Part shown: positions 2,747 to 57,711 of the stretch, piece by piece
Numbering within the stretch: the stretch's first letter is position 1
How the letters are laid out: every line of letters begins with the position of its first letter
From: Lentzea fradiae
GTDB lineage: Bacteria; Actinomycetota; Actinomycetes; Mycobacteriales; Pseudonocardiaceae
DNA: 64,000 nucleotides
Direction: 5' to 3'
Assembly: GCF_900100955.1 (NCBI RefSeq)
Contig: NZ_FNCC01000001.1
Span: 682,001-746,000, forward strand
The notes under the pieces: model-generated
Seen by the model: the letters and a program-made list of their open reading frames with translations, nothing else
Databases searched by the model: none
What the model was told of the DNA's origin: nothing
Made by a program: the position numbers and the translations under genes

Positions 2747-3058
2747 ATGAGCGGGTACGAGGTGCTGAGCGGGGAGCTCGTCTCCCACGCCGGCAAGGTG
2801 GAGGCGCTGGCCGGCCGGTTGCGGACGGCTGCTGACGCGGCCAACGCGGTGGCCATGGACAACAGCGCCTACGGCGTGGTGTGCCAGTCGTTCGCGATGA
2901 TGTTGCAGCCCTTCGAGGAACTGGGCGTGCGCGCCCTGCGGCAGGCCGCGGAGGCGGTCTCCGAGACCGCCGTGAAGGTCCGTGACACCGCCGAGCAGTA
3001 CGAGTCCGCCGATGCCGCGACGGCCGCGTCGATGACGGGCATCGAAAGGACGATGTGA
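2747..3058 (+). CDS. EspC/WXG100-like type VII secretion target
   Basis: A 103-residue helical protein without a signal peptide. It has two long amphipathic helices (roughly residues 5-40 and 60-95) and fits the ESX-secretion-associated EspC-type family: small, alanine-rich, starting with a GYEVLSGEL segment and containing TAEQYESAD near the C-terminus. A GGGGGAG ribosome binding site precedes the ATG. The TGA touches the start of the RHS toxin gene (TGATG/GTGATG), so both are cotranslated. Expected role: helical partner of the WXG-bearing N-terminus of the adjacent toxin for export through a type VII system encoded elsewhere. Family call moderate to good. Confidence 0.7.
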   Translation: MSGYEVLSGELVSHAGKVEALAGRLRTAADAANAVAMDNSAYGVVCQSFAMMLQPFEELGVRALRQAAEAVSETAVKVRDTAEQYESADAATAASMTGIERTM

Positions 3059-6000: not shown

Positions 6001-7644
6001 GCGGGCACCGTCCTCGCCGAGTCGTTCAACGGCCGCGCCCTGCGGTTCGGCTACGACCCCGGCGGTCGCCGGGTCCGCCGGATCACGCCCTCCGGCGCGG
6101 TCGAGGACCTGTCCTACGACCCGGCGGGACGGCTCGCCGTCCTGCGCACCGCGGGCCGCACCGTCGCGTTCGACCGCGACCAGCTCGGCAGGGAGACCGC
6201 CCGCAGGCTCGACGCGGGCGTGACCCTGGCGCAGCGCTGGGACCCGATGGGCCGGCTCGCCGAGCAGAACCTGCTGGTGCCGAACGCACCGGCGGCGCTG
6301 CAGCGGCGTTTCCACTGGCGGCAGAACGGGTCCCTCGCTGCCGAGGACGACGCGCAGCGCGGCGGGCGCAGGTTCGAGCACGACGTCCTCGGCCGGCTCA
6401 CCGCCGTCCTCGGCCCGGCGGGCGCCGAGCGCTACAGCTACGACCCGGCCGGCAACCTGACCCACGCCGACGGACTGCCGGACAACGACGCCAGGGGCCC
6501 TCGGACGTTCCAGCAGGGCCTCGTCCGCAGCGCAGGCCGCACCACCTACGCCCACGACGCGCAGGGCCGCGTCGTCGAGATGCGCCGCCGCACCCTCTCC
6601 GGCCGGGTCCGGACCTGGCGCTACACGTGGAACGCCGACGACCAGCTGGTCGAGGTCGGCACCCCGGACGGCGACCTGTGGCGCTACCACTACGACCCGC
6701 TGGGCCGCCGCTGCGCGAAGGTCCGCCACGCGCCGGACCGGACCACCGAGATCCTGCGCGTCGAGTTCACCTGGGACGGCGTCCAGCTCGCCGAGCAGCA
6801 CGCCGCGGGCGTCGTCACCACCTGGAGCGTCGAACCCGCCACGGCCCGGCCCGTGGTCCAGGTCGAACGGACGGCGCAGGACGGCCCCCGGTTCCACCAC
6901 GTCGTCACCGACCACCTCGGCAGCGTGCGCGAGCTCGTCGACCCCGGCGGCCGCGTCGCCTGGCGGTCCACGACCACCGCGTTCGGCGTGCCGGCCGACG
7001 AGCACCAGGCGTGGTGCCCGCTGCGGTTCCCCGGCCAGTACCACGACCAGGAAACCGGCCTGCACCACAACATGTTCCGGTACTACAACCCGGACACCGG
7101 CCAGTACCTCACCCCGGACCCGCTGGGACTGGGCCCGTCCCCGAACCCGTACGCCTACACCACGAACCCGCTGAGGTTCATCGACCCGCTCGGTCTCACG
7201 ATGTGCGAGCGGTTCAACAACTTCCAGCGGCAGGTCACGCCGGGGGAGCTGCACGGCGCACCACCCCCGTACCCCGGTGGACGTCCCGGCCACGCGGCGT
7301 CGAAGCACGGCGTCAGCCCGCAGGTGCAGGCGCAGCTGCTGAACAACCCCGACCGCGTCTTCAGCGGCCACTACCAGGGCACCAACCACCACACCGGCCA
7401 GCCGTACACGCGCGAGGTCGACGTCTACTACAGCAACGGCTCCGTCGTGATCACCGAGGCGGGCAACAAGAACTCGGTCATCACCGCCTATGGTCTGGTC
7501 GACACGAGGACCTCGAACCCGAGAGCGGTGGACCCGGAGCAGTGGGCGGGGAACCCGAGCTTCGTCGAGGTCAGGACGGGCAACGGCGTGAACGAAGTGG
7601 TGTACCCCAACCGGGAGCGCTGGGAGAGGAACGACTGGCCGTGA
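3058..7644 (+). CDS. RHS-repeat polymorphic toxin with WXG-type N-terminus and C-terminal nuclease-like domain
   Basis: A 1528-residue toxin. Residues ~1-255 form a helical WXG100/PPE-like export region with WTGAAADAYRG as the WxG motif. Residues ~258-355 are a Ser/Thr/Pro linker. At ~376, CGDPVDVVSGHMF opens the DUF6531/RHS core, which contains many YDxxGxL-type RHS/YD repeats and ends with the hyperconserved RHS core (RYYNPDTGQYLTPDPLG and IDPLGL near 1375). The variable C-terminal domain (~1382-1528) has HAASKHGV near 1412 and NKNSVITAYG near 1470. Its short alpha/beta layout with conserved His/Lys is reminiscent of BECR-fold ribonuclease toxins, but that is only a resemblance. The next gene overlaps by 4 bases (GTGA), the expected position of an immunity gene. 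Start: ATG 3058 is preferred over GTG 3055, being 7 bases after AAAGGA. Confidence 0.9.
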   Translation: MAEGNPLIAQPQDTTTAVTGIGIAESAQGLAHGLSNGDWVEAGLSAAGVGLEVLSMVIDPLGTLASYGVSWLIEHVRPLKDALDWFAGNPPVIQSFSETWANVAKEVNAVAAELGNNAKADTAGWTGAAADAYRGHAAETADAVAGAAVLADGISAGVMIMGEVVSFVREFIRDMVGELVGKLISWALELAATLGLATPVVVAQATSAIARVVSKVSDLVRKLVRTIGNVAPRIRAVISKLDEIIAKLAKLMRKSDGSTTPSSATTPSSATTPSSTTTPSSTTTPSSTTTPDSTSPSSTTNPSSTTTPSSTTTPSSATTPSSTPDTTAPSPANPPGTTTPSGTTTPSSTTTGKPGPIREQTGDARTTAQQADRRTGCGDPVDVVSGHMFVTHTDVLLPGVLPLVLRRTHISSYRSGRLFGRSWASTVDQRLEVDRDGVCFAGADGVLLVYPPVSPGVAVLPLEGPRWPLNTGPDGTLTITQDTGETLHFAGDHGQLPLSAITDRNGNRVDFLADEAGLPVEIRHSGGYRVAVEHNGSRIIALWLLNPEPGGDDVVLMRYRYDEAGDLSEVVNASGLPQRFTYDADGRITAWRDRNDTRYRYVFDTAGRVVRTEGTAGILNATFHYGQRVTVVEDSLGHRSEFHFNHLGQIVRTVDPLGATSRFDWDRYDRLLSSEDPLGRTTRCHYDAEGRRTEVVRADGSVLRAEYNALGLPSRVADAAGVANTYEYDERGNLVVITDRAGAVTRAEYDGRGHLVGITDPSGARTRIVTNGAGLPMVVVDPLGNAHQYVRDLFGRPSSVIDPLGARTVYGWTVEGQLASRVDPDGATRTWRYDGEGNLVARTDADGGRTVIEVGDFGLPRAVITPDGVRSTTFTYDTEQRVTAVTNAVGATWTYTYDPAGNLVAERDFSGRTTSYTYDAAGQLTSRTNGAGQTVSFQYDQLGKVVLRHADDGDTTYAYNPQDLLVSAVNQAGTLTVDRDTAGTVLAESFNGRALRFGYDPGGRRVRRITPSGAVEDLSYDPAGRLAVLRTAGRTVAFDRDQLGRETARRLDAGVTLAQRWDPMGRLAEQNLLVPNAPAALQRRFHWRQNGSLAAEDDAQRGGRRFEHDVLGRLTAVLGPAGAERYSYDPAGNLTHADGLPDNDARGPRTFQQGLVRSAGRTTYAHDAQGRVVEMRRRTLSGRVRTWRYTWNADDQLVEVGTPDGDLWRYHYDPLGRRCAKVRHAPDRTTEILRVEFTWDGVQLAEQHAAGVVTTWSVEPATARPVVQVERTAQDGPRFHHVVTDHLGSVRELVDPGGRVAWRSTTTAFGVPADEHQAWCPLRFPGQYHDQETGLHHNMFRYYNPDTGQYLTPDPLGLGPSPNPYAYTTNPLRFIDPLGLTMCERFNNFQRQVTPGELHGAPPPYPGGRPGHAASKHGVSPQVQAQLLNNPDRVFSGHYQGTNHHTGQPYTREVDVYYSNGSVVITEAGNKNSVITAYGLVDTRTSNPRAVDPEQWAGNPSFVEVRTGNGVNEVVYPNRERWERNDWP
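3832..4110 (+). repeat. Degenerate tandem repeat encoding a TTPSS-type linker
   Basis: A run of near-identical 15-18 bp units (ACCACGCCCAGCTCG and variants) encodes repeats of TTPSS, TTPDS and TNPSS inside the RHS toxin. It separates the secreted helical N-terminus from the RHS shell and probably acts as a flexible, extended, possibly glycosylated spacer. Length variation between strains is likely because the units are recombinogenic. Confidence 0.85.
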
Positions 7645-14003: not shown

Positions 14004-14010
14004 CTAGAAG
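13740..14010 (+). pseudogene. HxlR-type winged-helix regulator remnant
   Basis: Translation in the frame of 13632 gives RPISAEILEETLAAMERMGW, then RWRGEYGLMPLGRSLVEV and RAWARDHL. These are the wing and C-terminal helix signatures of HxlR-family regulators (usual pattern ISxxxLTxxLRxLExxGLV followed by YxLTPLGRSL). The HTH helix and the normal CPxxxxL N-terminus upstream are not readable, and the open frame continues without homology into the methyltransferase 3' end, so the gene is broken. Family call moderate. Confidence 0.45.
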
Positions 14011-15872
14011 AGCCGGTCCGAAGGTTGGTTGTCCCGCGCGGTCGCGCAGGCACGAGCCAGGGGACAGCGCTCGCACAGGGGTGCCTGTTTGTGGCAGTGG
14101 AGCTGGCCGATCAGACGTAACGCGGCCATGCGCAACGGTGCTTTGGCGTCACCACCCACCAGACGGGAGAGGTCGACGCGGCCGTCGGTCAAGCTGTTGG
14201 CCCGTTCCGAGGCGGTGTTGAGCACTCTGGACGACACGCGGATGACCGGCTGGCTGGTCAGCAGGACGTCGTCGCCTGCCAGGAGCTTCAGAAGAGCGGT
14301 CTTCCCGGGAGGCAGATCCAATATTTCCGGAATGTCCTCCGCCCGCAGCCAGATCTTCCGGTCGTCCTGCAACTGCCGAAGCCGCGTCACCGTGGCGGCG
14401 GACGCACGGGTGGTGGCGCCCCGTTCGATGAGGTCCACCGCCCGTTTGGTGATTCGCCCCTTCGTCGCGACCTCGCCGAGACCGTCGTTGTACGCGGCCA
14501 GCTCGGCGGGCGACGGATCCAGCATTGCCACCACGGCGGCGACAGGTGGAGTCAGACGTTCCCCTGGCAGCACGGACCAGTAGGTCCCGGCGCGACGCCG
14601 TTCTGCCCACGAGGCCAGCTGCCTGGATAGCACGCGCCACTCGTTCCGCGCGGGTATTTCGCTGTCTGGTACTGGAAGCAGCGCTGTGGCAGCCGCTTCA
14701 CCGAGCATCGGTGGCACGGCGTTGCCGATCTGCTGGAACGCGTGGCTGCGTGTACCGGCGAAGCGGAAGTCGTCGGGGAACGTCTGGATGCGCGCGGCCT
14801 CGCGGACGGTGAGAGTGCGGTTCTCCGACGGGTGGATGTACCAGTAGCCGTCCTTGGCGATGTGCGCCGTGATCGAGCGGCTCAGCTCGTTCCAGTCGAG
14901 GCGCTTGTACTTGTCGTCGAAGGTGTCCGCCTTGTACCTGCGCAGGGCGGGATCGATGTTCGCGTAGAGGGTCTTGGACGTCATCAAGGAGAAGATCTTG
15001 CGATCATCGTCGCGGACAGGTCGGGTCATGTGGTCCCACACCCTGCCGTCGGTGACATGCCGCCGCATCCGCGCGGCGAATTCCGAGACCTGGCCGTCGG
15101 GTGCGTAGGGAAGGTCACGCCCGCCGGTGCCCAAGTCGAGCCCGGGTAAGTCCGCGATCGCCTCGTGGACGGTCACCGGTTTCACCGGTTCCGGCCAAGG
15201 GAAGGCCGCGCTGTCCGACCGGGCCAGCAGGATCAGGCGCTTGCGGTGCTGGGGGACACCGTACTGCCAGGCGTCGACCAGCCGGAGGTTGGTCCGGTAA
15301 CCCGCGCGTTCCAGCATGTCCACGATCCGTCGCACAACGTGGAAGTCGTCGCCCAGCGCCATGTCGGGGACGTTCTCCATGAGGACCGCACGCGGCTTGA
15401 CCTTCAGCACGACGTCGACGTAGGCCTGCCACAGTTCCTTCCGCTCGTCGAACTCGTCGCGCACGCCGGCGTCGACCAGGCTGCGGATCTTGCTGCGTCC
15501 GGCCCGGCTGAACGGCTGGCAGGGAGGGCCGCCGGCGATCAGGTCGATGTCGGCGAGCTTGAGCATTTTGATGAGTGCGGCGCGCTTCTGCCGGTCGCCC
15601 AGGTCCACGTCCAAAGCGAGCCCGGGGAAGTTCGCGCGGTGGGTCTGCAGCGCGAACTTGTTGTGGTCGACCGAAGCCGCGACGGTCCATCCGGCGTTGG
15701 TGAGCCCCAGGCTCAGCCCGCCACCCCCGGAGAACAGGTCGACCGCGAGCCGCGCACCCCCCGCCACCCGCTCGGCGCACCACTGCTGGAACGTCTCCTC
15801 GGTGCAGGCGTCCGGGTGCACCGGCAGCTGGAGCACGTCACTGCGTTCGAGTTTCACCGCGTAGACCGCCAC
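14004..15872 (-). CDS. DNA (cytosine-5) methyltransferase with C-terminal endonuclease III-like HhH/Fe-S module (DrmMII-like)
   Basis: A 622-residue protein. C5-methylase motifs appear in order: DLFSGGGGLSLGL (44-56, SAM site), GGPPCQPFS (114-122, catalytic Cys118), ENVPDM (166-171), PQHRKRLILL (207-216), a target-recognition region, TLTVREAARIQTFPDDF (353-369) and QIGNAVPPML (381-390). Residues ~400-622 are extra. LPPGKTALL near 520 resembles a helix-hairpin-helix, and Cys593-x6-Cys600-x2-Cys603-x5-Cys609 reproduces exactly the spacing of the endonuclease III iron-sulfur loop. Expected role: host DNA marking. Start GTG 15872 is chosen for the AGGAGG 4 bases upstream; ATG 15950 is an alternative. 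It is the last gene of the operon. Confidence 0.9.
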   Translation of the reverse strand: MAVYAVKLERSDVLQLPVHPDACTEETFQQWCAERVAGGARLAVDLFSGGGGLSLGLTNAGWTVAASVDHNKFALQTHRANFPGLALDVDLGDRQKRAALIKMLKLADIDLIAGGPPCQPFSRAGRSKIRSLVDAGVRDEFDERKELWQAYVDVVLKVKPRAVLMENVPDMALGDDFHVVRRIVDMLERAGYRTNLRLVDAWQYGVPQHRKRLILLARSDSAAFPWPEPVKPVTVHEAIADLPGLDLGTGGRDLPYAPDGQVSEFAARMRRHVTDGRVWDHMTRPVRDDDRKIFSLMTSKTLYANIDPALRRYKADTFDDKYKRLDWNELSRSITAHIAKDGYWYIHPSENRTLTVREAARIQTFPDDFRFAGTRSHAFQQIGNAVPPMLGEAAATALLPVPDSEIPARNEWRVLSRQLASWAERRRAGTYWSVLPGERLTPPVAAVVAMLDPSPAELAAYNDGLGEVATKGRITKRAVDLIERGATTRASAATVTRLRQLQDDRKIWLRAEDIPEILDLPPGKTALLKLLAGDDVLLTSQPVIRVSSRVLNTASERANSLTDGRVDLSRLVGGDAKAPLRMAALRLIGQLHCHKQAPLCERCPLARACATARDNQPSDRLF

Positions 15873-15876
15873 ATCG

Positions 15877-15882
15877 CCTCCT
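15877..15882 (-). promoter_or_regulatory. AGGAGG ribosome binding site of the methyltransferase
   Basis: A perfect AGGAGG on the minus strand with 4 bases to GTG 15872. It decides the start against ATG 15950, which lacks a comparable site. Unlike the other operon genes this one is not coupled by stop/start overlap, so the methylase has independent translation. Confidence 0.65.
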
Positions 15883-16021
15883 GTCCTTCGAACAGGGACC
15901 CGCGCGGGACCTTCACCACCGACGATCTGGTTCTGATCAACTTCAGCCATGCCACTTCCCGGGCCGGTCTGTTCGGCCGCCCCGACGTACGGACGAGAGA
16001 CGAGAGACGAGGGCGAGAGGA

Positions 16022-17767
16022 CTACCCCGCGAGGACGTCGGACGGGGGAGCCCAGCCCACCGCGCGGACGCGCTCCCAGCAGGCGCTCTTCTTGGCCCAC
16101 TCGGTGACGTTCCCGCCGCTGGGAGGCGAGGTGAGCACTCGGCGCACCGCCAGCGCGACCTCGGGGACCGCGGCGGCGATCGGCCCGGGAAGCGTCTGCT
16201 CCTTCCAGAGCCGGTCCAGGTCGAGCCCGCCGAGCGTGTGCACGATCAGCGAGACGGCGTGCGCCGCCGTCTGCCCGAGATAGCCGCCGTAGTTCTGTTT
16301 CTGGATGATCGTCCGCACCTGGCGGAACACGATCCCCTTGGCGACCAGATGGCGGAAGTACACGTCGTCAGGGGCCTCGCGTTCGGCCAAGCCCTCTTCG
16401 GACGTCCACGTCCGGAAGCACTTCTCGGCGCCCTGGCACACGACGTCCGGCCGGAGCGCGTATGCGTACTCGTACTTCGCCGCGTCCGTCTTTCCGAACC
16501 GCTGCCGCACGGGGTTCTCACGATCGAACTTGCGCCGCGCGGCGGCGGTCGTGAACTTGTTCTTCTCGACGTCGTACTGCCCGCGTACGCGCTCGTAGTA
16601 CCACCGGGTCTGCTCGACGTCGACACCGGACGGAGTGACCCAGATGGTGCGGGACCACCGCTCCAGCCCCACATGGAACCGGCTGTTGCCCTCGAAGTCG
16701 GCGGGCGTGACCGCGTTCTGGGAGTTCGCGTAGCGCGAGATCTCGGGAACCATGCTGTCCAGCCGGTCGTCCGGGATCAAAGTGATCTTCGCGGGGACGG
16801 TGACCTCTGACAGGTCGATCCCCTTGCGGGCGGCGTGGTGCAGCGAGGCCGTGGTCTGCCCGCCGTTGACGATCTGCAGCTCGGTCAGCGTCCGGAGCAC
16901 AGGTCCGCTCGGGGTCTGTTCGAGCTCCGCCGCGCGAGCGGTCGCGGACACACCGTTGTTGTAGGCCAGGAACCGTCCGGGCTGCTCCTTGATCGTCTCG
17001 GCGATCCCCTTGTTGACCTTTCCCCTGGCCTGGAGGTAGGCGCGCACGTTGCGCTGGAGCAGGCGGCTATGGTGCTCGTCGTACAGGTCAGCGAGCAACT
17101 TGCCCGGCAGCATCGCCATCAGGCAGCGGTACCCGTCTGCCTGCACCACCGACTCCAGGCACCGCACCTCGTAGCCCATCGTCGCGACGTCGATGAGGAT
17201 GTCCTCCTGCTGGGCGCCCGAGCTGATCAGCTTCTGGAGCCGGTTGACGTCCCACACGTTCACCAGGGTCGGGAGGCCGGCGACGGTGGCCTCCTCCGCG
17301 CGGCGCAACCCGGTCTTCCCGTCGGTGAAGACGAAGATCTTGATCATCTGCAGCTGCGACCACGCGCCGTGGATGCGCTCGACCATGTCGTAGGCCGGGC
17401 TCGACCGCTCCAGCTGCTCGTGCAGGCCGTTCCGGCAGAACTCCGCGAACGCGCCCACTCGGCGCACCAGCTGGGTCAGCCGCTCGCGCTTCAGCGGCTC
17501 AGCGTCCAAGCCGTAGTCGGCGGTGACGAGGTGCAGAATCGTGCCGTCGTTGGTGATGTCGTACCCAGCCACCTCGACGCGACGGCTCTGCCACGGCACG
17601 AACAGGTAGCAGGTCTCCAGGTCGTCCAGCGCCCCGTCGTCGATCAGGTGCTCGCCCACCAGGGTCACGAAGGCGTCCCGGGCCATCAGCTCCGGTTCAG
17701 CCTGGATCCGGTCCTCGACCCTGCTCCGCAGCTCCGCTGCGAACGCGGCGAGTTCGCCGTCCGTCAC
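16022..17767 (-). CDS. AIPR-family (abortive infection phage resistance) protein
   Basis: A 581-residue protein with the AIPR signatures: GRFLAYNNGVSATA (264-277), LQIVNGGQTTASLHHA (298-312) and, further on, EISRYANSQNAVTPADF. AIPR proteins are found in phage-resistance loci, often beside DNA methylases and GHKL ATPases, and are thought to be nuclease-like or nucleic-acid-binding effectors; the biochemical activity is not settled. Start GTG 17767 overlaps the fusion-gene stop (GTGA). The position between the sigma fusion and the methylase fits an effector or modification-coupled subunit. No truncation is seen. Confidence 0.88.
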   Translation of the reverse strand: MTDGELAAFAAELRSRVEDRIQAEPELMARDAFVTLVGEHLIDDGALDDLETCYLFVPWQSRRVEVAGYDITNDGTILHLVTADYGLDAEPLKRERLTQLVRRVGAFAEFCRNGLHEQLERSSPAYDMVERIHGAWSQLQMIKIFVFTDGKTGLRRAEEATVAGLPTLVNVWDVNRLQKLISSGAQQEDILIDVATMGYEVRCLESVVQADGYRCLMAMLPGKLLADLYDEHHSRLLQRNVRAYLQARGKVNKGIAETIKEQPGRFLAYNNGVSATARAAELEQTPSGPVLRTLTELQIVNGGQTTASLHHAARKGIDLSEVTVPAKITLIPDDRLDSMVPEISRYANSQNAVTPADFEGNSRFHVGLERWSRTIWVTPSGVDVEQTRWYYERVRGQYDVEKNKFTTAAARRKFDRENPVRQRFGKTDAAKYEYAYALRPDVVCQGAEKCFRTWTSEEGLAEREAPDDVYFRHLVAKGIVFRQVRTIIQKQNYGGYLGQTAAHAVSLIVHTLGGLDLDRLWKEQTLPGPIAAAVPEVALAVRRVLTSPPSGGNVTEWAKKSACWERVRAVGWAPPSDVLAG

Positions 17768-20700
17768 GTCGTCCCCTCGGTTCGGTGTTGTTCGATCACG
17801 AGCTCTGACTTGCCGCGCGCTATGCGTGCGAGAGCGGCCAGCCTCGGGCGCAGCGGTTCCGGAGGCACGACCGCGGCCCCGGCGTGGTCTTCTCCCCACG
17901 CGGAGCGCTGGCCGCTCGGAATCTCGACGTGGACTCTGGCGAGCGCGGTCGTCTCCGCCATGTCCAGTCCGTCGAGCCCGAGCCAGCCGCCGCACGAGAG
18001 GTACCGGCCGTCGCACCGCACGTAGAAGCCCTGCGTGGCAGGCCAGTCGGCGGGGTCGCCGACGACGTCCGTGTCGCCGGCGCGCAGGTGGTCCGGGTGG
18101 GGAAGCACGCGCGGACTGGCCACCACCGAGAACCCGGCCGCGGTCACTCGCTCCTCCCCGAGGTGCTGTCCGGCGGGATTGCTCCACAGGAACGGGTCCT
18201 TCGCGGTCACGGCGCTGCCGTTGACCTCGATGCCGATCTTGCGCTCCAGCAGTTCGCCGAACACCACACCGAGTTCGCGGACGCACCGGTCGAGGATCGT
18301 CTCGAAGCGCGCACGCGCGACCTGGGGACGTGGCGCGCGGAGGAGCACCACCGACCAGCGACCTGGCTCCTCCTCGGCCACCAGCCCCGCGGGAAGCCTT
18401 CGTGAGGTGTGGTGCAACCACCAAGTGTCGGTACCGGCGGCAGAGGTGAGCATCAGGCAGCCAGGGGACTCGTGGGACTCCCAGGCGGTGATCTCGTCGT
18501 AGAGGGACGCGGCGACACCGAGCGCCACCGATCCGCGCGACACCTCTTTCCCCTCGTAGAGGGTCGAGAGCAACGTGTACCCGGCGAAGGTCGCGCCGTC
18601 GTGCACGATCGCGAGTCTGGAGTTCGTGCCGTAGCCCGCGCTCCTGACGCGGATACGACGAGCACCGGCTTGCAATGCGCGGTCGACCAAGGCGGTCAGC
18701 ATGTGCCCGATGGCACTGTCCTCGCCGGTGGCACCAAGCCGTTTCACGAGTCCGGTGCCCGTGGTGATCTCCGTGCCGGTCGGCCGCTTCTCGCGGACCG
18801 GTGTGCGCACCACGGCCAACCGGCGGGCAGGCCGCTTCGGCTGAGGAGCGGGAACGGGGTCCGCGTCACCGGCGACGAGCCCCACCTCCGCGAGTTTCGC
18901 GATCAGGTTGCTCTTGGCCTTGCCCTCGATCTGGCGGGCTCGCTCGCGGGTGAAGGAGAAGTGCTCACCAACCTTCTCCAGGGTGCGCTCCTCGCCGGTG
19001 TCGAAGCCGAACCGCAGCCGGAGGACCTCGGCTTCGCGCTCCTTGAGGCGAGACACGGCTTCGCGCACGAGCTCGGCGCCGAGCGCGCGGTCCACCACGT
19101 GGTCAGGGTTCGAGTCGTGCTCGAACGGGATGGGTACGAGGTCGGCCAGCGAGATGTCACCGTCCGCGCTCAGCGGGGCGTCCAGGCTGAGCACGCCCCC
19201 GGCCAGGCGCAGGCAGTCCAGCACGTTCTCCCGGGAGAAACCCGTGACCCTGGCGATGTCCGCGACGGAGACCTCGTCCTGGTCGAGCCTGAGCCTGTCC
19301 CGCACGCTGCGGACCTTGCGGACCTGTTCGTACTTGTGCACCGGCAGCCGGATCAACGTGCCGTCGTCGGGAACGGCGCGGCCCATGGCCTGGTTGATCC
19401 AGTTCACCGCGTAGGTGGAGAACTTCAGCCCGCGGGAACCGTCCCACTTCTCGATCGCCCGGATCAGGCCGATCACACCGTGCTGGTACAGGTCGTCGTA
19501 GTCGAGCCCGGCTCCTGCGTACCGCGGGATGCAAGACCTCACGAGTCCGGTGTTGTGCAACACCATGACGTCGAACGCCTTCGCTCGCTCGTCGTCGCCG
19601 CGCAGCGCCGCGCGGAAACCCTTCGGCAGCTCTTCCGCGAGATCGCCTCCATCGGGGCGCATCAACTGCGCCAACCCGACTTCCTCCTCAGCCGTCAGCA
19701 GGCGTCTGGCGCGCATCTCGTCCCGCAACGGTGCCTGGAGCACCGCGCGGGCACTGCTGATCGCCGTGCGCGCGGGAGGAAGTGGCTGCTGCTCGGGCGT
19801 GGCGGCGGGAACGGGGGACACAGGGGTGGGAACCACCTCCACCCACCCGGCGCCGTCCGTCTTGCGGGTGCGGTCGTCCAACAACGACATCGGCAGATCC
19901 GCCAGTGCCGTGGGACGTCCCGCCCCGGAGTAGGAGAGGACCAACCCCGAGCGGGTCGTCGGGCCGAGCACCCGCAACGCGGTCTCGAGGCGGAAGCTGT
20001 CGGTCACCTGGTCCAGGCCCGCGAGCACCACGTGGTCGAACCGCATCCCGACAGCGCTGGCCCACGTCAGCACTTTGACGCCGGGGTCGGACGTCGTGAT
20101 CGCCGCGTGCTCCGGGACTCTGGCGCCCGACAGGTACCACTGAGTGCGGCCGTCGAAGAGATCTCCGATGCCGTCCTTGAAGACCTGCACCAGTTCACGG
20201 GTCGGGAGCAGCACGCCGACCTGCTCGTCGCGGTGCGCCTCCGCCTGCTCCACGACGAACCGGATCTCCTCGTCGACGTCGTCGTGGTCGACGAGAATGG
20301 GCCGCGGACCGTCGTGGCTCGCGATGTCCGAGCGGGGACGTCTCCCACTGAGGTGCTCCAAGAGCTCGTGCACCCGCGGGATGCCGCCGTCGACGTCGAC
20401 CGATGTGGGGCGTGCGACGCCCAGGAGGGCTTCGAGGTCCTCGAGCGTCGTACCGGAGTCGTCGACCATCTGAACGGGATCGACGAACACCGTCGCCTCG
20501 ACGTGCAGAAGCCGTAACACCCGATAGAAGTCGGCGGGAAGCTGCTGGCCGTGGACCACGACGACGTGCCGTCGGTTCAGCGGCCGGATGTGACGGGCCC
20601 GCAGGCGTTGCTCGAACTCCCAGAAGTCGATGTCGTAGTCGTCGGACTGCGGTGCCTTGGTCCGCAGCACTGCACGCCACATGTCGGCGAAGTACGCGTG

Positions 20701-20919
20701 GTAGGTCATCACCGTGTCGCCGCGGCTTTCGAACGGCATCAGCGTGCGGATCCGGTTCTTCAGCACACTGGCCCTGGTGATGACGTGGAGCTCCTTGCCC
20801 CGCCCGCGCAAACGGCGGTAGGCCTTGACCGCTCCGGCCGCTTGGTCCACGCCAGGGACGGCCACCACCACCTCGTACCCGGAGGCCTCGTGGACGGGGG
20901 TGTGCAGCGCGACGCTCAC
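17764..20919 (-). CDS. Three-part fusion: inactivated SF1 helicase - complete sigma-70 factor - GHKL ATPase-like domain
   Basis: A 1051-residue protein starting at GTG 20919 (GTGA overlap with drmB). Residues 1-345 follow the UvrD-like SF1 pattern, but the P-loop region reads VAVPGVDQAAGAV, the Walker B region reads VVVHGQQLPADFYRVLR (family: DEGQDLP), and the C-terminal KGLEFD motif reads AVGMRFDHVVL, so ATPase residues are lost. Residues ~405-685 are a full sigma-70: region 1.2 (LLTAEEEVGLAQ), 2 (LYQHGVIGLIRAIEKWD, GLKFSTYAVNWINQAM), 3 (VSVADIARVTGFS, VLSLDAPLS) and 4 (LKEREAEVLRLRFG, FTRERARQIEGKA). Residues ~730-1000 resemble a GHKL/MORC ATPase (LVDRALQAGARRIRV, GSVALGVAASLYDEI), with the N-box Asn replaced by Arg. 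Predicted cytoplasmic, binding core RNA polymerase and DNA. The sigma call is very firm, the two flanking calls moderate. Confidence 0.88.
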   Translation of the reverse strand: MSVALHTPVHEASGYEVVVAVPGVDQAAGAVKAYRRLRGRGKELHVITRASVLKNRIRTLMPFESRGDTVMTYHAYFADMWRAVLRTKAPQSDDYDIDFWEFEQRLRARHIRPLNRRHVVVVHGQQLPADFYRVLRLLHVEATVFVDPVQMVDDSGTTLEDLEALLGVARPTSVDVDGGIPRVHELLEHLSGRRPRSDIASHDGPRPILVDHDDVDEEIRFVVEQAEAHRDEQVGVLLPTRELVQVFKDGIGDLFDGRTQWYLSGARVPEHAAITTSDPGVKVLTWASAVGMRFDHVVLAGLDQVTDSFRLETALRVLGPTTRSGLVLSYSGAGRPTALADLPMSLLDDRTRKTDGAGWVEVVPTPVSPVPAATPEQQPLPPARTAISSARAVLQAPLRDEMRARRLLTAEEEVGLAQLMRPDGGDLAEELPKGFRAALRGDDERAKAFDVMVLHNTGLVRSCIPRYAGAGLDYDDLYQHGVIGLIRAIEKWDGSRGLKFSTYAVNWINQAMGRAVPDDGTLIRLPVHKYEQVRKVRSVRDRLRLDQDEVSVADIARVTGFSRENVLDCLRLAGGVLSLDAPLSADGDISLADLVPIPFEHDSNPDHVVDRALGAELVREAVSRLKEREAEVLRLRFGFDTGEERTLEKVGEHFSFTRERARQIEGKAKSNLIAKLAEVGLVAGDADPVPAPQPKRPARRLAVVRTPVREKRPTGTEITTGTGLVKRLGATGEDSAIGHMLTALVDRALQAGARRIRVRSAGYGTNSRLAIVHDGATFAGYTLLSTLYEGKEVSRGSVALGVAASLYDEITAWESHESPGCLMLTSAAGTDTWWLHHTSRRLPAGLVAEEEPGRWSVVLLRAPRPQVARARFETILDRCVRELGVVFGELLERKIGIEVNGSAVTAKDPFLWSNPAGQHLGEERVTAAGFSVVASPRVLPHPDHLRAGDTDVVGDPADWPATQGFYVRCDGRYLSCGGWLGLDGLDMAETTALARVHVEIPSGQRSAWGEDHAGAAVVPPEPLRPRLAALARIARGKSELVIEQHRTEGTT

Positions 20920-22703
20920 AGCACGGTCCCCGGGACACCGCCGATGGCCGCCGCCAAGTCCTTGAAGAACCCGAACTCCGGGTCGACCAGCAGGCGCCGG
21001 TCCAGCAACCTGTTCGTCGCCTCGCAGCTGGTCTCCGGGGTCAACGTGCACGCGTGGCACGCGGCCAGCGACAGGCCGTCAGGGCCTTGTCCCGGGTGGT
21101 CCGAGCACACGGGGTCGAACGAGCACCACAGGGCCGCGGTGACCGACATGTCGAGGAGCCTGCCCAGCCGCGGGAACTCGCCCATCCTGACCAGCCCGCC
21201 CAGGGTGCCCTCGTGGTCACCGGCCGCGGTGTAGATGAGCACTCCGGCCATGGCGGGGCCTCTGCCGTTCGTCACGTACAGACGCTCGCGCAACGCCGAA
21301 GTGGAGTAGCCCGCTTCGAAGGCGGTGTTGCGGAGGAGGAGGTGGGCGAAGGTGTGCAGCAGCACGTAACGCGGCGTGGGCTCGGAGAGCCACTTCAAGC
21401 CCTTGGTGCGATGCCTCTCCAACAACTTTCGGCACCGCTCGACCACAAGACCGGAGCGTTCCCAGGAGGACAGGGCATCCTCATCGAACCTGAGGAAGAA
21501 CCCCTCGCCGAACACTTCGACGGCGGGCAGGAAGTCCGCGTCGGCGCTGAGGTTCGACGGCACCACCTGACCCATGGTGTGGCGTTCGAAGTGGGTCAGC
21601 ACGCGCACCTCACGGAGACGGTCGACCAGCACGACGTCCGGGATCAGGGCCTGCCAGCCGATGGCGCCGCCTCCCGTGCCGCCCCAAGGGTGATCCGCCC
21701 GGCGCGAGATGAAGCGGTCCTTGGGGTCGTGGTTCCCCTGCGGGTTGATCAGCGCCGCCCACTCGTCCGGGCGGATGTTCTCCGGCCCGCCCTCGGTAGG
21801 GGTGCGCGAGTCCGTGAGCTCCTGCGCCAGCGCGGCCTCGATCTCGGTGGGAGACAGACCGTGCTTGCCCGCGGCGATGCCGATCATCGCCTTGGCCAGC
21901 TCGTGGTTCGGCTCGCTCAGGAGGAACTTGAACTCGGCGCTCTTCCGGAGAGAGGCCAGTGGAGTGCTGAAGGTGCTCCACGCCGAGTCGGGCGGGATGT
22001 CGATCGCGCTCACCACAGTGGGGAAGTACACGCTCGAGGCGCCGCGTTGCATCGCCACCACCTGCTCGGAGCAGGGCACCGCGTCCCGCTGGTCCTGCCA
22101 CGGTTGCCTGCCGGTGCACTTGCTGCCGATCTGAGCGAGACCGATCCGCGTCGTCAGGCCGTCCAGCGACCTCTCCCCGCGGCACGTCGCACAGCGCACG
22201 ACGAGCGAGTTCAGGCCACCACCGACCTTGGCCTTGCTCAGGAACTCCAGAACCGGCCGCTGGCACTGGTTCTGGTTGCGGTCACGTCGGATCGACGAGT
22301 GCGCCCACCCGATCCAGTCCACATCGGACAGGTGTCCACCGGCGCACACCGCCACGAAGCGCATCGGGACGAGTTGTTTGCGGCCAGGGCAGTTCTCGCA
22401 GGACGGCGCGGTGTTGGCCACCTCTTTCGTGTACGACCAGCGGCTCATCCGCCGGCAGCCGGTGCAGAACAACCACTGGGGAAACCGGTAGTAGGGGATG
22501 GGCCAGCGCGGGGACGGAGACGGTGCCGCGAGCGAGTCCACCCCCAGGTAGGAGGCCAGCCGGGGGAACTCGACGGGCACGCGCGGGCCGCGCCACCTGC
22601 CCGCATCCTCCACCACGAACGACTCGCCGACGAGGTCGATGATCGCGCCGGGACCGAACGGACTGATGATCTGCGAACGTCTGACCTTGCGCACCGTCGT
22701 CAT
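20916..22703 (-). CDS. drmB: DrmB-type DUF1998 DISARM protein
   Basis: A 595-residue protein. QIISPFGPGAIIDL at 11-24 is the characteristic DrmB N-terminus. Zinc-type cysteine pairs lie at 80/83 and 102/105, followed by FVAVCAGGHLSDVDW (116-130). The C-terminal DUF1998 domain has LLHTFAHLLLR and CHACTLTPETSCE from 549. DrmB works with the DrmA helicase in DISARM, where the pair forms a DNA-translocating complex that recognises invading DNA. The ATG overlaps the drmA stop (ATGA) and its own stop overlaps the fusion gene, so stoichiometric production is likely. Confidence 0.9.
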   Translation of the reverse strand: MTTVRKVRRSQIISPFGPGAIIDLVGESFVVEDAGRWRGPRVPVEFPRLASYLGVDSLAAPSPSPRWPIPYYRFPQWLFCTGCRRMSRWSYTKEVANTAPSCENCPGRKQLVPMRFVAVCAGGHLSDVDWIGWAHSSIRRDRNQNQCQRPVLEFLSKAKVGGGLNSLVVRCATCRGERSLDGLTTRIGLAQIGSKCTGRQPWQDQRDAVPCSEQVVAMQRGASSVYFPTVVSAIDIPPDSAWSTFSTPLASLRKSAEFKFLLSEPNHELAKAMIGIAAGKHGLSPTEIEAALAQELTDSRTPTEGGPENIRPDEWAALINPQGNHDPKDRFISRRADHPWGGTGGGAIGWQALIPDVVLVDRLREVRVLTHFERHTMGQVVPSNLSADADFLPAVEVFGEGFFLRFDEDALSSWERSGLVVERCRKLLERHRTKGLKWLSEPTPRYVLLHTFAHLLLRNTAFEAGYSTSALRERLYVTNGRGPAMAGVLIYTAAGDHEGTLGGLVRMGEFPRLGRLLDMSVTAALWCSFDPVCSDHPGQGPDGLSLAACHACTLTPETSCEATNRLLDRRLLVDPEFGFFKDLAAAIGGVPGTVL

Positions 22704-25700
22704 TTCCGCGTCCCCCTCACCTGAACCTGAATCTCCACGTCGACGCTGCGCATCGAGTCGAGCGTCGCCCAGCCGTCACCTCGGTCGGTGAACCGCTTGA
22801 GCAGCTTGGGCCGTTCGCGCCCGCCCTGGCTGTAGCGCAGTCCGCCTGCGGGTTCCGCGTCGACGATCCGCTTCATCCACGTCTCGATGAGGTCGTCCAG
22901 ATGGGCTTGGACCCGTTCGAGCTCGGTTTCGTCGGCCCGCTCCACTCGATCGAGGAATGCTTGGAGGAGCCGGGTGAACCGCTCGTCGTCGCGGTCGAAC
23001 AACGCGGCGTCCCCGTCGCCCGACAGACCGAGCGCGTGGCGCACCAGCACCACCAGATCCGCGTGCAGAGCGCGAAGCCGGGCCGGTACCGAGAACGGCG
23101 TCACGGAGCTCGGCTCCACCCAGCGGTACAGGCTCGAGTGGTACGGGGCGAACGACTCGTAGTGCGACCGGTCGCGTGGTTTGGATGGTGAGTACACCGT
23201 CACCACGAGACCGGGGCGGTCGGCGTTGCGGCCGACGCGGCTGGTCGCCTGGATGTACTCGGCCGTCGTCTTCGGCTGACCGACGACGGTCATGACGCCG
23301 AGCCTGCCGACGTCGACACCCACGGAGATCATGTTGGTGCTCGCGAGGAAGGCGACCCCGCCCGGGGCGTCGTGCGGCTTCTTGAGCCGGTCCAGGCGCT
23401 GCGGGATCTGAGCGGACCCCACGTTGCTGGTCAGCTCGACGACGTTGTCGTCGTTGAGCTGCCGGACGTGGTCCTCCGCCTGTGCGATGACCTTCAGCCT
23501 CGACGGGATGTCGTCCGACGCGAGGTTGATTGTCTTGCCCAGTTCGCGGAGGCTGTTGTGGTACACGACGAGCGTCGAGTAGGAGTCGTGCACCGCGGGC
23601 GTCAGCTCGACCTCGAGGGGAGCCTGCAACTGCGCCGCCGCGACGTGGATCAGCGCGGTGAGAGGCGTATGCCCCTGCGGCATCACGCCCAGATAGGCCC
23701 TGCCGGGCCGCTCGTCGTCGGTGCGCACGAAGTACGAGTCGCTCGCGTCGATGCCCGCAGGCGGGAACAGCGCGACGGGCCGTCCGAAGACGCCCTTGGT
23801 CTGCTCGTCCGCCCGCCGAATCGTCGCGGTGGCGGCGACGATCTTGGGCTTGTTCCCCAGCTGCTCCATCAGCACGTCGAAGGCCGCTTCGTAGAGCCCC
23901 ACGATCGTGCCGAGCGGACCGGAGATGAGGTGGAACTCGTCTTGGATGATCAGTGACGGCCCGGGGTCGTCACCCGTGCCGAAGAACACCCCCGCCTTCT
24001 CGTTCCACACGGTGCGGGCGAACTTGTCGACGGTTCCGACCAGCATCGTGGGCGGGTTGTCGTAGAGGTGTTCGTCCACAGAGGACATCGGAAGCTCGTT
24101 GTGGAACGGGCACTTGACGTTCATGCAGCGCACGCGGAAGGAGCTGTTGGTCGCCGAGATGCCCCAGCGCTGCTCGTCGTCGGGGCCGCTGGGCACGATG
24201 CGGGTCCCGCACCACGGGCAGGACTCGATCTGGAACCCTTGGTCGGTCGCGATACCGGCCCGCGCCTTGGTGAGCCATCGCCGGGCTTCCGCATAGCTGT
24301 TAGGGCTGTTCTCCCCACCGACCCACAGGCCGATCGAGATGGGACGGCTGCCGAGCTCCTCCTCGGAACCGCGGCGCACCAGTTCGCAGGCGGCGATCAT
24401 GGTCGCGGCGCGCTGGAACTGCTGGCTGGTGAGCAACCGCAGGGTGTACCTGGTGACGACCGCCGTGCCCGCGCCGGCTTCGCCCAGCGTCAGCCGCCGG
24501 TGGAGGATGGTGAACGCGGCGAGTCCGAGGTACGCCTCGGTCTTGCCACCGCCGGTGGGGAACCAGATCAGGTCGACGAGGTCCCGGTCCTCACCCTCCT
24601 CGACCACACCTTTCACGGTCATCAGCAGGAAGCCGAGCTGGAACGGACGCCACGCGAGGTCGAGCGCACGGTGATCGACCTCCGGGTCCGGCGCTTCGGA
24701 GATGGCGTGCGGCGAGCCGGCGAGGCCCGGCCCGCTGTGCGCCATTTGCATGGCCATCACCTCGTTGGCCAGCGCGAACGCCTTGAGCGCCATCCGGTCG
24801 CCACGCAGGAAGCCGAGACCTGCGAGCATGCGGTCTCTGGCCAGGGACGCGCGGTCCCGTAAGCGGTCTGCCGCGGGACGAAGCCGCGGGAGGAGGCCGT
24901 CCGCAGCCGAGTCCCACGTCTTCTCGATCCAGTCCGTGTAGCGGTCGACGAACCGGGTCAGAGTGGCGAACACGGGGTCCGGGTCGATGTCGATGCGGGC
25001 GAGGGTCTTCAGGCGGACGGCGTCCGCCACGCCGGGCAGTTCGGAGGTGACGCCGGGCACGACGTGCACCGGGAGGAACGACGTGCCGACCCAGGCCGGG
25101 TTGTCGCCCGTGGTGTCCCACGCCGCCGCGGTTCCGTGACCGACGGCGTACACCGGTACGTCGCGGTACTGGAGCTCGAGCTCTTCGGCTTCCTCGTCGC
25201 TGTGGGCGCGAAGCTGCGCCGGATAGCCGATGATGGTGGCCCCCGCGACCGAACAGCGCAGCCCGACCTGGAAGAGGCAGTCCTCCGGGTTCACGGTCCG
25301 GCGCTCTTCCTGCACCGCGCGGTTGACGAGAACGACGGTGACGATGACGCCGTCGGGGTGTGGCCGCCAGGTGACCTCGACGCTCGCCTTCCCGTCCCAG
25401 AGAGCTCTCCGCTGCGTCGGTCCGGACGCCGGAGGTTCGAACAGCAGTGCTTCACTCGTCACGAGGTCGAGCGGTTCGCGCTGCCACTCGTCCTCCGCCA
25501 GAGCGCGGTACCGCGCCGCGCGGACCTCCACGGTGACCGCGGACCGGGACGTGGTCATGAAGCTGACGCCGGCAGAGCTCGGCCGACTCTGTCCCGCCAG
25601 CGTGATCGGGTCCTCGTCGTCGTCCTGCGGGACGGCTCCCGCCTGCTCGTCGAGTTCCTCGGCCTCGTCGGCGGGGCCGTTCGCGCCGGTGGCGTGCGGG

Positions 25701-25861
25701 GTGAGGGACAGCGGGAACAGCACGGCGGTGAGGTACCGGTGCTGAGGTTCCTTCTCGTACAGGATCTCGTCCTCGCCGTCCACCGGGCCCACCAGCTGGT
25801 CGTGGAGATAGGCAAGCACCCGGTCCCGGTCGGAGAAACCCGTGTCGTACCGCCCCGTCAC
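22700..25861 (-). CDS. drmA: DrmA-type DISARM helicase
   Basis: A 1053-residue SF2 helicase. The N-terminal ~420 residues are the DrmA-specific region. Walker A is WFPTGGGKTEAY near 437; a Cys4-type insert (CPWCG near 552, CMNVKCPFH near 583) probably binds zinc; motif II is QDEFHLI near 641 (DEFH variant); SAT is seen as ATATIRR; and motif VI is QATSRVGRN near 874. It is expected to unwind or translocate on incoming DNA with DrmB. Start GTG 25861 overlaps the preceding stop (GTGA); an upstream GTG at 25897 is less likely. All helicase residues look intact, unlike the helicase-like part of the sigma fusion. Confidence 0.92.
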   Translation of the reverse strand: MTGRYDTGFSDRDRVLAYLHDQLVGPVDGEDEILYEKEPQHRYLTAVLFPLSLTPHATGANGPADEAEELDEQAGAVPQDDDEDPITLAGQSRPSSAGVSFMTTSRSAVTVEVRAARYRALAEDEWQREPLDLVTSEALLFEPPASGPTQRRALWDGKASVEVTWRPHPDGVIVTVVLVNRAVQEERRTVNPEDCLFQVGLRCSVAGATIIGYPAQLRAHSDEEAEELELQYRDVPVYAVGHGTAAAWDTTGDNPAWVGTSFLPVHVVPGVTSELPGVADAVRLKTLARIDIDPDPVFATLTRFVDRYTDWIEKTWDSAADGLLPRLRPAADRLRDRASLARDRMLAGLGFLRGDRMALKAFALANEVMAMQMAHSGPGLAGSPHAISEAPDPEVDHRALDLAWRPFQLGFLLMTVKGVVEEGEDRDLVDLIWFPTGGGKTEAYLGLAAFTILHRRLTLGEAGAGTAVVTRYTLRLLTSQQFQRAATMIAACELVRRGSEEELGSRPISIGLWVGGENSPNSYAEARRWLTKARAGIATDQGFQIESCPWCGTRIVPSGPDDEQRWGISATNSSFRVRCMNVKCPFHNELPMSSVDEHLYDNPPTMLVGTVDKFARTVWNEKAGVFFGTGDDPGPSLIIQDEFHLISGPLGTIVGLYEAAFDVLMEQLGNKPKIVAATATIRRADEQTKGVFGRPVALFPPAGIDASDSYFVRTDDERPGRAYLGVMPQGHTPLTALIHVAAAQLQAPLEVELTPAVHDSYSTLVVYHNSLRELGKTINLASDDIPSRLKVIAQAEDHVRQLNDDNVVELTSNVGSAQIPQRLDRLKKPHDAPGGVAFLASTNMISVGVDVGRLGVMTVVGQPKTTAEYIQATSRVGRNADRPGLVVTVYSPSKPRDRSHYESFAPYHSSLYRWVEPSSVTPFSVPARLRALHADLVVLVRHALGLSGDGDAALFDRDDERFTRLLQAFLDRVERADETELERVQAHLDDLIETWMKRIVDAEPAGGLRYSQGGRERPKLLKRFTDRGDGWATLDSMRSVDVEIQVQVRGTRK

Positions 25862-27432
25862 CGGTCGTCCCCCGTCCCGCTCGGCTTGATCACCCACAGC
25901 GCGGCCTTGGCCCGGGTCATGCCCACGTACAGCTGTGCGCGCGCAGCTCGCTCATCCACTGCGTCGTCCACCTCGAGGAAGACGTACCGGCTCTCCAGCC
26001 CTTTGAAGTCGGCGATCCGCGCGAACCCGACGCGTCCCCTGCCCGGCCGGCGCATCCGCATCAGGTCCAGCACGTCGACTCGCTCAAACCATTCGGAGGG
26101 CAACCTGCCGAAGACCGACGAGGTCAGGTCGCGCGGCGACAGCAGCACGACCTGTTCGAGCGGAACGCCGTGCTCCTCCAGTTCTGCCAAAGCGGCCGAA
26201 ACCACGGACACCACCTCGTCGCCGTCTTCCTCGGCCACCACGACCTCGCGGCCGTGGCCGGCCGTCGTCACCCCGAGGTCCGCTCCCGTCCGCTCCTGGG
26301 TGGCGCGGACGATCTCGATGGTGTTCCGGCAGTTGTCCATCAGGTCGACGAAGGTCGGGCGGTGCGAATCCAGTCGGACCTTCGCCTCGTCCTCGTAGCG
26401 GCCGACCAGCCCTCGCTGGTTGTTGGAGTCCAGGAAGAACGCCCAGCGGCCATCGGCCAGACCGTCCGCCAGAACGGCGTCCAGCACGTCGAGGTCGTGC
26501 GCGTTGATGACGTCTTGCGCCTCGTCCACCACGACCACGTCGAAGGTCTTCGCGCCGAGGGCGGCCACCTCGTCGAACGGAACCACCGTGATGCCTTCGA
26601 GGTCCTGCTGCGACCGGATGAAGGCCGCCAGTACGTGGCTGCGGCAGGTCAGCAGGATGCGCCTGCCCGAGGCGCGGATGCGCCTGCACATTTCGACGGC
26701 CAGCATGGTCTTGCCCGTGCCGGCGCCGCCCTCGAACACCAGCCGCGGGTTCCTGCTGTGCTGGTCGAGCGCCTTGTACTGGCTCTTGGTGAGGGCAACG
26801 AGCTCCTGCTCCACCATGTCGTCGAGCCGGCGCAAGGAGAGCACGCGGTCGAAGTCCGGACGCAGGACGTTGAGGTAGCGCTCGATGTCCTCTGCCGAGA
26901 GCGAACCCCAACCCCCGGGCTTGCCCTCCCAGAACTTCCCCAACCGGTCGAGGCAGTCCCCCCACCCCTCAGAGGCGAGACGGACCGAGTTGATCACCAT
27001 CTCGGGCGTCCACTCGACACTGACCGCGTCGAACTCGCTCTCCGGGAAGACGACCCCGTAGCCGAACACCGTGCGGTCGACCAGTTCGGGGTCGGTCGTG
27101 CGGCGAAGAACCTTGGCGAGCGCGAACATGCTGGTCCGCGCCTGGTCGAGCGGGCTCTCCTTGAGCCGGTGCCGCTTGCCCTTGAGGTCCCGCGTGTGCC
27201 AGACGTCCTTCTTCAGGAGGATGTCGCCGCCCTTGACCTCCAGCACCAAGAAGCCGCGGGTGCCCAGCAGCAGGAAGTCGATCTCGCAGACCCGCTTGCG
27301 GTCGTGTTCGGGCAAGTTGGTGCTGTGCAGGGCGTACTCCCAACCGTCCATCTCGAGAACGGCGAGCTGGGAGAAGATCTCCTGCTCCGCGCGGCTGGCG
27401 CCGGGATGCACCGAATCCGGGATCATGCGCAC
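25858..27432 (-). CDS. NERD-domain SF1 helicase/nuclease-like protein
   Basis: A 524-residue protein, first gene of the operon. Residues ~10-165 form a NERD (nuclease-related) domain with EID at 50-52 and EVK at 65-67, the restriction-endonuclease-like acidic/Lys residues. The SF1 ATPase follows: Walker A GGAGTGKT (235-242), Walker B VVVDEAQD (300-307), a DFKGLESRYVFL motif and LYVGMTRAKAALWVI near the C-terminus. It is probably a DNA-dependent ATPase linked to a nuclease. Its ATPase region has the same order of elements as the decayed N-terminus of the sigma fusion, suggesting a paralogous origin. Start GTG 27432 is chosen for AGG spacing; ATG 27426 is possible. Confidence 0.88.
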   Translation of the reverse strand: MRMIPDSVHPGASRAEQEIFSQLAVLEMDGWEYALHSTNLPEHDRKRVCEIDFLLLGTRGFLVLEVKGGDILLKKDVWHTRDLKGKRHRLKESPLDQARTSMFALAKVLRRTTDPELVDRTVFGYGVVFPESEFDAVSVEWTPEMVINSVRLASEGWGDCLDRLGKFWEGKPGGWGSLSAEDIERYLNVLRPDFDRVLSLRRLDDMVEQELVALTKSQYKALDQHSRNPRLVFEGGAGTGKTMLAVEMCRRIRASGRRILLTCRSHVLAAFIRSQQDLEGITVVPFDEVAALGAKTFDVVVVDEAQDVINAHDLDVLDAVLADGLADGRWAFFLDSNNQRGLVGRYEDEAKVRLDSHRPTFVDLMDNCRNTIEIVRATQERTGADLGVTTAGHGREVVVAEEDGDEVVSVVSAALAELEEHGVPLEQVVLLSPRDLTSSVFGRLPSEWFERVDVLDLMRMRRPGRGRVGFARIADFKGLESRYVFLEVDDAVDERAARAQLYVGMTRAKAALWVIKPSGTGDDR

Positions 27433-28085
27433 GATGACCTGCCAGCTTTCCGGTAAACGGGGGAGAGGGTCGAAAGTGTGTTCGAGTGGTACAGCGGAGT
27501 CTCCCTCTTGAATCGCCGAGCGGCCGTGTGCGATCGATCCATCGTTCGTTCGCGTGGAATGGTTACACGGTCAATGCAGGCTCTTGTCAATGCGTGCCTG
27601 CTTGCGGCTCGGTGTAGTGCTCAGTGGTGCGGCTGCATCCTTGCAGGTCTTGCCTGGGTCTTGTCGGCGGTGTCATTCATTTGTCAGAAAAGTGAGCCTC
27701 TCGGTCTTGTCGGTGTCCAGTTCGGTGTTGCACCGGCCACGTCCGCCTGGCGCTTCTCGTTGCATGTATGCAGGTCAGAGCGGATGTCGAGTGGAGATGG
27801 AGTTGCGGTGATCCGATGTCCACTCTTATGCTTATGCCACTTGATGGGGAATTTCGGTCCGAGTGCCGCGTGGTGCGCGGGCATCCGTCCGGATCGCTGC
27901 TCTCAATGGAGTAATATTCGACATCGCAACGAATTGTCGTCAGGCGCGGCTGGGCGTTGCCGATGACAAGATGGATGTGCTGCGTGGAAGCTGTCATGGA
28001 TCGTTGGTGTCAGCTTGCTGGGTGCGCCGCGCCATCAAATCCTATGTGGACGGATATGTGGTGAGCGTGTTTGATGATGGAACCG
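27433..28085. other. Leader region of the defence operon, no gene seen
   Basis: About 650 bp, visibly richer in A/T than its surroundings and interrupted by stops in all frames. It must hold the operon promoter. On the minus strand TTGACC at 27579-27574 is the best -35-like hexamer I can find, but no convincing -10 follows at 16-18 bp. No intact operator palindrome or RNA gene was recognised. Confidence 0.45.
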
Positions 28086-55095: not shown

Positions 55096-55114
55096 GCAGA
55101 GGAGAGCACACCAG

Positions 55115-56537: not shown

Positions 56538-56546
56538 ACAGCCCGG

Positions 56547-57656: not shown

Positions 57657-57711
57657 CGGCAGCCCTTTCGCTGTGGTCGGCTTCCCGGCCAGCCTAGGTC
57701 TGGCCCCCGGC

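Follow-up and report, generated by a model that had tools for sequence, protein, structure and literature searches.

In the genome of Lentzea fradiae (RefSeq assembly GCF_900100955.1), a 64,000-nucleotide stretch of contig NZ_FNCC01000001.1 (positions 682,001 to 746,000; hereafter the window) contains a six-gene candidate defense operon on the minus strand, running from 27432 to 14004. Its genes encode, in order, a NERD nuclease-SF1 helicase, DrmA, DrmB, a fusion protein with a sigma-70 factor at its center, an AIPR protein, and a C5-cytosine methylase (Table 1). Overlaps of 4 bases occur at DrmA/DrmB, DrmB/fusion, and fusion/AIPR (judged by coordinates and start/stop codons, with the AIPR start taken at 17767), and those linking DrmB, fusion, and AIPR suggest coupled production of complex subunits. 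An earlier note on this DNA had described a sigma factor placed between a dead helicase and a GHKL-like domain within a DrmA/DrmB operon. Domain matches bear out this description, and the arrangement is conserved as a protein family.

Table 1. Features of the sigma fusion operon in the window (pos., window positions; aa, amino acids).
Feature	Pos.	Strand	Remarks
Promoter-like site TTGACA-17-TGTAAC (tentative)	27562..27590	minus	158 to 130 bases before NERD-helicase start
NERD nuclease domain + SF1 helicase	25858..27432	minus	PF08378 2.1e-10; Walker A GGAGTGKT intact
DrmA helicase	22700..25897	minus	NF038325 879 bits vs cut-off 950, E 5.5e-264; PDB 7s9v_A 3.3e-135
DrmB	20916..22703	minus	NF038324 422.6 bits vs cut-off 240; PDB 7s9v_B 1.4e-65
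Fusion protein, 1051 aa: pseudo-SF1 helicase, sigma-70, degenerate GHKL+S5	17764..20919	minus	
Fusion N-part, residues 12-357, UvrD/SF1A fold	19849..20886	minus	
Fusion sigma-70 part, residues 401-672, regions 1.2 to 4.2	18904..19719	minus	
Fusion C-part, residues 718-1049, MORC/MzaB-type GHKL+S5 fold without key catalytic residues	17773..18768	minus	
AIPR / MzaE-like protein	16022..17767	minus	AIPR Pfam families clearly matched
C5-cytosine methyltransferase open reading frame, DrmMII-like	14004..16100	minus	PF00145 3.8e-60; PADLOC DrmMII 3.5e-79

A search of the protein collection returned 59 proteins at E ≤ 0.001, the window's own included; P0001-P0049 show all or part of the fusion layout, and the layouts of P0050-P0059 are different. 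The 48 others of the former group align with the fusion at 35-80% identity over the alignment. Furthermore, NERD-helicase, DrmA, DrmB, fusion, AIPR, and methylase genes occur all together in 10/10 fusion genomes of the same family (the source genome and nine relatives), with the methylase upstream and inverted in a single locus (L112). Together, these observations exclude a sequencing frameshift that artificially joins separate genes, which the earlier note had named as a possible refutation.

The predicted structure of the fusion (mean pLDDT 77.9, pTM 0.44) supports the folds of the single parts but not their mutual packing. In the N-part of the window protein, PGVDQ stands in place of Walker A and HGQQ in place of the motif II DEGQ, and the TRA of motif VI is lost. 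Motifs and sigma residues were audited in 43 full-length fusions including the window's own (6 of 49 rows were short and were dropped; P0050-P0059 were set aside for their other architectures). Walker A (GxxxxGK[ST]) is present in none of the 33 fusions that hold the stretch (10 of the 43 rows lack it), and the neighboring NERD-helicase keeps it in 9/9. As for the C-part, neither the Asn of GHKL motif I (R, Q, H, or L instead) nor the S5 switch Lys was found in any of the 43 fusions; both are present in 11/11 comparator MzaB/GHKL proteins. The earlier notion of a GHKL-like domain thus stands for the fold, with the qualification that here, too, the key residues are lost.

By these motifs, both flanking ATPases look dead, whereas the sigma part does not. 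Sigma regions 2 and 4 score above the Pfam cut-offs (48.8 and 47.2 bits vs 24 and 24.1, respectively). In Escherichia coli numbering, R584, E585, R588, and Q589, as well as D403, Q406, F427, T429, Y430, W434, and R441, are kept in 43/43 fusions and in 5/5 proteins of a sister form described below, and Q437 is kept in 42/43 fusions. From their roles in E. coli sigma-70, we take R584, E585, R588, and Q589 to read the -35 element, D403, Q406, E407, and N409 to contact core polymerase, and W433 to act at the -10 element. In the window protein, the four -35 readers correspond to R658, E659, R662, and Q663, and the core contacts D403 and Q406 to D476 and Q479. In the 43-row alignment, the sigma part has 44 invariant columns among 272 (mostly in regions 2 and 4), the N-part 15 among 400, and the C-part 24 among 334. 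Based on the kept contact residues, we infer that the sigma part of the fusion still binds core polymerase.

Both flanking ATPase parts are under purifying selection, as expected for scaffolds. For the window vs five of its nine relatives, dN/dS is 0.25-0.33 in the N-part, 0.18-0.28 in the sigma part, and 0.20-0.28 in the C-part. Among the other operon proteins except the methylase, the same five pairs gave 0.09-0.14 for AIPR and 0.12-0.25 for NERD-helicase, DrmA, and DrmB. The fusion is overall the least conserved of the five proteins measured, with single parts overlapping DrmB or NERD-helicase in some pairs.

Concerning the fusion's partners, DrmA is a clear homologue of the 7s9v DrmA. The AIPR protein is predicted by its structural model to have a restriction-endonuclease fold (residues 1-186) followed by a weakly ParB-like stretch (about 207-353), unlike the HEPN RNase assigned to the AIPR N-terminus in a 2012 paper (PMC3506569). 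The start codon of the methylase is uncertain; its conserved sequence begins near 15860, and relatives align from residue 81 or 82 on. A general type II methylase model slightly outscores DrmMII on this protein.

The distribution of these genes shows both a stable set and several partial ones. Matches to the C-part were found in 18 of 297 same-family genomes, of which 10 (the source genome included) have the fusion and the remaining 8 a shorter open frame. All eight shorter-frame loci have relatives of MzaB, MzaC, and MzaD and a methylase, seven have an AIPR match, and none has a sigma match. Across the class, 15 of 394 genomes (own included) gave matches, and inspection of the loci in all but four of these (G417, G353, G572, and G672) revealed five with the sister form and five with MZA-type clusters. 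The sister form has DrmA-DrmB-fusion-AIPR and methylase genes, with a separate MzaB-like gene nearby in 5/5 and a second methylase in 2/5 (tblastn); its fusion comprises pseudo-SF1, sigma, and S5 and has lost the GHKL domain. One sister operon carries a Vsr-type endonuclease gene after a methylase (L187:16282-16824), a type of protein not among the six of the window operon.

DrmB itself is more widespread, with matches in 57/297 family genomes (62 places). Among the 20 of these places that were inspected besides the 10 fusion loci (another 32 were left out), searches for sigma, AIPR, and the fusion gave no match at E 1e-4, and in 11 of them a NERD-helicase accompanies DrmA. NERD-helicase, DrmA, and DrmB can thus be found in the absence of sigma; the block formed by the fusion, AIPR, and methylase looks like an addition. 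The NERD-helicase-DrmA-DrmB triad without a sigma or AIPR match (L161-L171), where 4 of the 11 loci gave weak methylase matches at 28-30% identity, may constitute a separate, small DISARM-like system.

Two described defense systems share parts with the window operon, which we interpret as a hybrid of MZA-like parts and a DISARM-like core. PMC9523054 describes mzaABCDE as a validated system in which MzaA is a sigma factor. A sigma-70 protein, a MORC/MutL-like GHKL protein, and an AIPR protein in one defense cluster (MzaA, MzaB, and MzaE, respectively, in MZA) are common to MZA and the window, and a related C5 methylase (57-58% identity in L116-L121) lies beside actinobacterial MZA-type clusters. 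NCBIfam and PADLOC assign the names MzaA, MzaB, and MzaE to the fusion and AIPR parts, with all NCBIfam scores below the curated cut-offs. The MzaA model (ankyrin + sigma) reaches 204.5 bits on the fusion (cut-off 800) and covers only its positions 473-701 of 726, the MzaB model 81.5 bits (cut-off 850) in a protein that lacks the catalytic Asn and switch Lys, and the MzaE model 342 bits on the AIPR protein (cut-off 1050). No other MzaB match was found in the source genome at E 0.001, and the MzaC and MzaD queries from L118 had no tblastn match in the window at E 1e-3. In MZA-type clusters of the family and class, a 515-amino-acid protein follows MzaE (L118:16810-18357; relatives in L119-L121 and L192); its only recognizable sigma feature is a region 4-like helix-turn-helix (HTH) near the N-terminus (PF04545 7.6e-6), and it possibly stands in place of MzaA.

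With DISARM, the window operon shares DrmB (well above the cut-off) and a DNA methyltransferase of DrmMII-like C5 type, and it has a DrmA homologue that scores somewhat below the DrmA cut-off, but it differs from the systems described in PMC9142583 and PMC12458937 by the added NERD nuclease-helicase, sigma fusion, and AIPR. No phospholipase D (PLD) family was detected among the six operon proteins (Pfam, E 0.1), leaving the PLD nuclease DrmC without a counterpart. The likeness of the fusion N-part to HelD and SLFN11 is limited to the SF1 fold, and similar scores to that of HelD are reached by DEAD-box helicases. The co-occurrence of GHKL proteins, helicases, methylases, and AIPR was noted in a 2008 MORC paper (PMC2292703), in the available text of which the word "sigma" does not occur; in that of the DISARM structure paper (PMC9142583) and the YprA survey (PMC12458937), a word search found it only as a chemical supplier. 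The open-licence literature searched yielded no description of the fusion, nor of a sigma factor together with DrmA/DrmB. The earlier statement that no described system has this architecture therefore holds for the fusion within that literature, but the combination of a sigma factor and a GHKL ATPase in phage defense is already described in MZA.

Sigma and GHKL domains are fused in two other architectures, one of which has a sigma outside the fusion clade. In P0050-P0052 (two of three named Streptomyces), a sigma-HTH-GHKL protein has its sigma in the same clade as the fusion sigma (100/99 support), and differs from the fusion by GHKL motifs that are intact by eye and belong to another GHKL family (PADLOC PDC-M33A). 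Matches to this GHKL type occur in 13/388 class genomes; of the five inspected, two actinobacterial ones (G547 and G385; stretches L216/L217) have it fused to sigma, again with intact-looking motifs by eye. There, the sigma-HTH-GHKL gene lies about 150 bases from, and divergent to, a NERD-helicase-DrmA-DrmB-SF1 operon. Unlike in the window, the SF1 protein (366-367 amino acids, alignable with the fusion N-part) is unfused, with GxPGxGK[ST] (Walker A) and DEGQ intact. No AIPR match was found in the stretches inspected around these genes. Here, too, the DrmA/DrmB core is thus found together with SF1, sigma, and GHKL (the last of another family), but in another arrangement. Separately, P0056, P0057, and P0059 have an MzaB-type GHKL domain with intact motifs at the N-terminus and sigma-70 at the C-terminus, the reverse of the window order.

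In a midpoint-rooted sigma tree of 43 rows (26 of the 43 fusions thinned out and P0059 not included), a branch with 100/99 support separates the fusion, sister, and P0050-P0052 sigmas from the others. The other side holds housekeeping-type sigmas, the GHKL-sigma proteins P0056/P0057, and MzaA (P0058, a single row on a long branch), placing the fusion sigma in another clade than this MzaA. Three sigma-70 factors of the host itself likewise fall outside the fusion clade. Provided that the placement of P0056/P0057 is right, sigma was joined to GHKL proteins more than once.

The earlier note had suggested that the protein could recruit or poison transcription, sense invading DNA by its promoters, or activate its own operon. 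As a tentative interpretation, which we put at not far below an even chance, the fusion may be a non-enzymatic adaptor by which a predicted helicase-nuclease machine of DrmA, DrmB, and NERD is brought to RNA polymerase where invading DNA has its promoters. The sigma part would bind core polymerase, and DrmA/DrmB and AIPR would dock on the two dead domains. The complex would be attracted by early promoters of phages that are similar to those of host sigma-A, so that it would meet invading DNA where polymerase starts on it. NERD (through its nuclease domain), DrmAB, and the restriction-fold AIPR could then carry out or trigger the attack, and the C5 methylase could mark and protect self DNA. We favor the adaptor because sigma is the part with its working residues kept, because the gene belongs to a run of overlapping genes that probably encode subunits of a single complex, and because selection maintains both dead ATPases, which fits protein-docking surfaces. 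A wider claim, that a class of phage-defense machines recognizes invading DNA by its transcription, with a scaffold of two dead ATPases carrying a defense-specific sigma-70 that guides a DISARM-type helicase-nuclease to polymerase and promoters, is possible but doubtful.

Several observations weigh against the adaptor. The contacts with polymerase, DrmA/DrmB, and AIPR are ones that we infer from sequence. Core-contact E407 is changed to His in 33/43 fusions and N409 to a hydrophobic residue in 43/43, and the -10 residue Trp433 is Asn in the window and in 25/43, with Trp in 8/43; with these changes, the sigma may now prefer different promoters. Trp433 is retained in the sister proteins, which makes its loss in the fusions look derived. 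In the C-part, the acid of GHKL motif I is still E or D in 13/43 fusions (A in the window). At the level of loci, a NERD-helicase match is absent from the five sister stretches and the eleven NERD-DrmA-DrmB loci have no sigma match; neither piece is bound to the other everywhere. Finally, the divergent sigma-HTH-GHKL gene of L216/L217, with its XRE-type HTH, has a regulator-like look.

This last arrangement, together with the TTGACA-17-TGTAAC site before the window operon, makes a regulatory role a serious rival, although we consider it unlikely: the sigma would be held inactive by its flanking domains and, on infection, would direct polymerase to the defense operon or other genes. The site matches at 10/12 positions, a score reached in 13/1000 shuffles and in 2/850 overlapping 300-base segments of the region (which may be the site itself). 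TGTAAC (27562-27567 in the window; also in L107-L115, as GGTAAC in L113) lies 121-180 bases before the NERD-helicase start in 10/10 loci. By eye, several close relatives have an inverted repeat of the type CGAACGA...TCGTTCG after it, and the two elements are a possible promoter or operator. On the other hand, of seven loci scanned, only the window pairs TTGACA with TGTAAC, the six relatives lacking the pairing; five diverged upstream regions share no 6-mer at similar places; and a stricter consensus scan returned 0 promoters vs 0.6 expected. A sigma gene inside an operon with overlapping partners is also unlike a typical regulator.

The low conservation of the fusion among the measured proteins (sigma part 70-75% identity vs AIPR 82-93%), as for a phage-facing sensor, is the reason to take seriously another rival, which we regard as quite improbable, namely that the sigma is a decoy for phage anti-sigma or polymerase-hijacking proteins whose binding releases the AIPR and DrmAB effectors. 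Regions 2 and 4 are the usual targets of anti-sigma factors, and the concentration of invariant sigma columns there suits a decoy. However, a decoy is not required to keep the DNA-reading R584, E585, R588, and Q589, which are retained in all 43 fusions, and no anti-sigma partner was found, although none was sought. The invariant -35-reading residues also count against an activated fusion that seizes core polymerase through its sigma part and shuts down transcription in abortive infection, since such poisoning needs no promoter reading. Retention of the core contacts D403 and Q406 in 43/43 and the presence of an AIPR-family protein in the operon would suit polymerase seizure, but E407 and N409 are changed, and we judge it very unlikely.

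Research on sigma factors concerns their role in initiating transcription; in the present case, the genes of one sigma clade accompany DrmA/DrmB, and more than one architecture links that clade to GHKL-type domains. If this sigma still reads promoters, transcription itself would be a signal that lets bacteria detect invading DNA. The genes for unfused SF1 and for sigma-HTH-GHKL by the same DrmA/DrmB core provide natural comparisons that make the role of sigma in MZA and in the window system directly testable.

Elsewhere in the window, a plus-strand gene (3055-7644) encodes a 1529-amino-acid RHS-repeat protein with DUF6531. Genes at 44199-47735 and 54845-62383 encode an AMP-binding/carrier/reductase protein, an NDP-hexose 2,3-dehydratase, a DegT aminotransferase, and an FAD hydroxylase, which look like parts of a deoxysugar-containing natural-product cluster.
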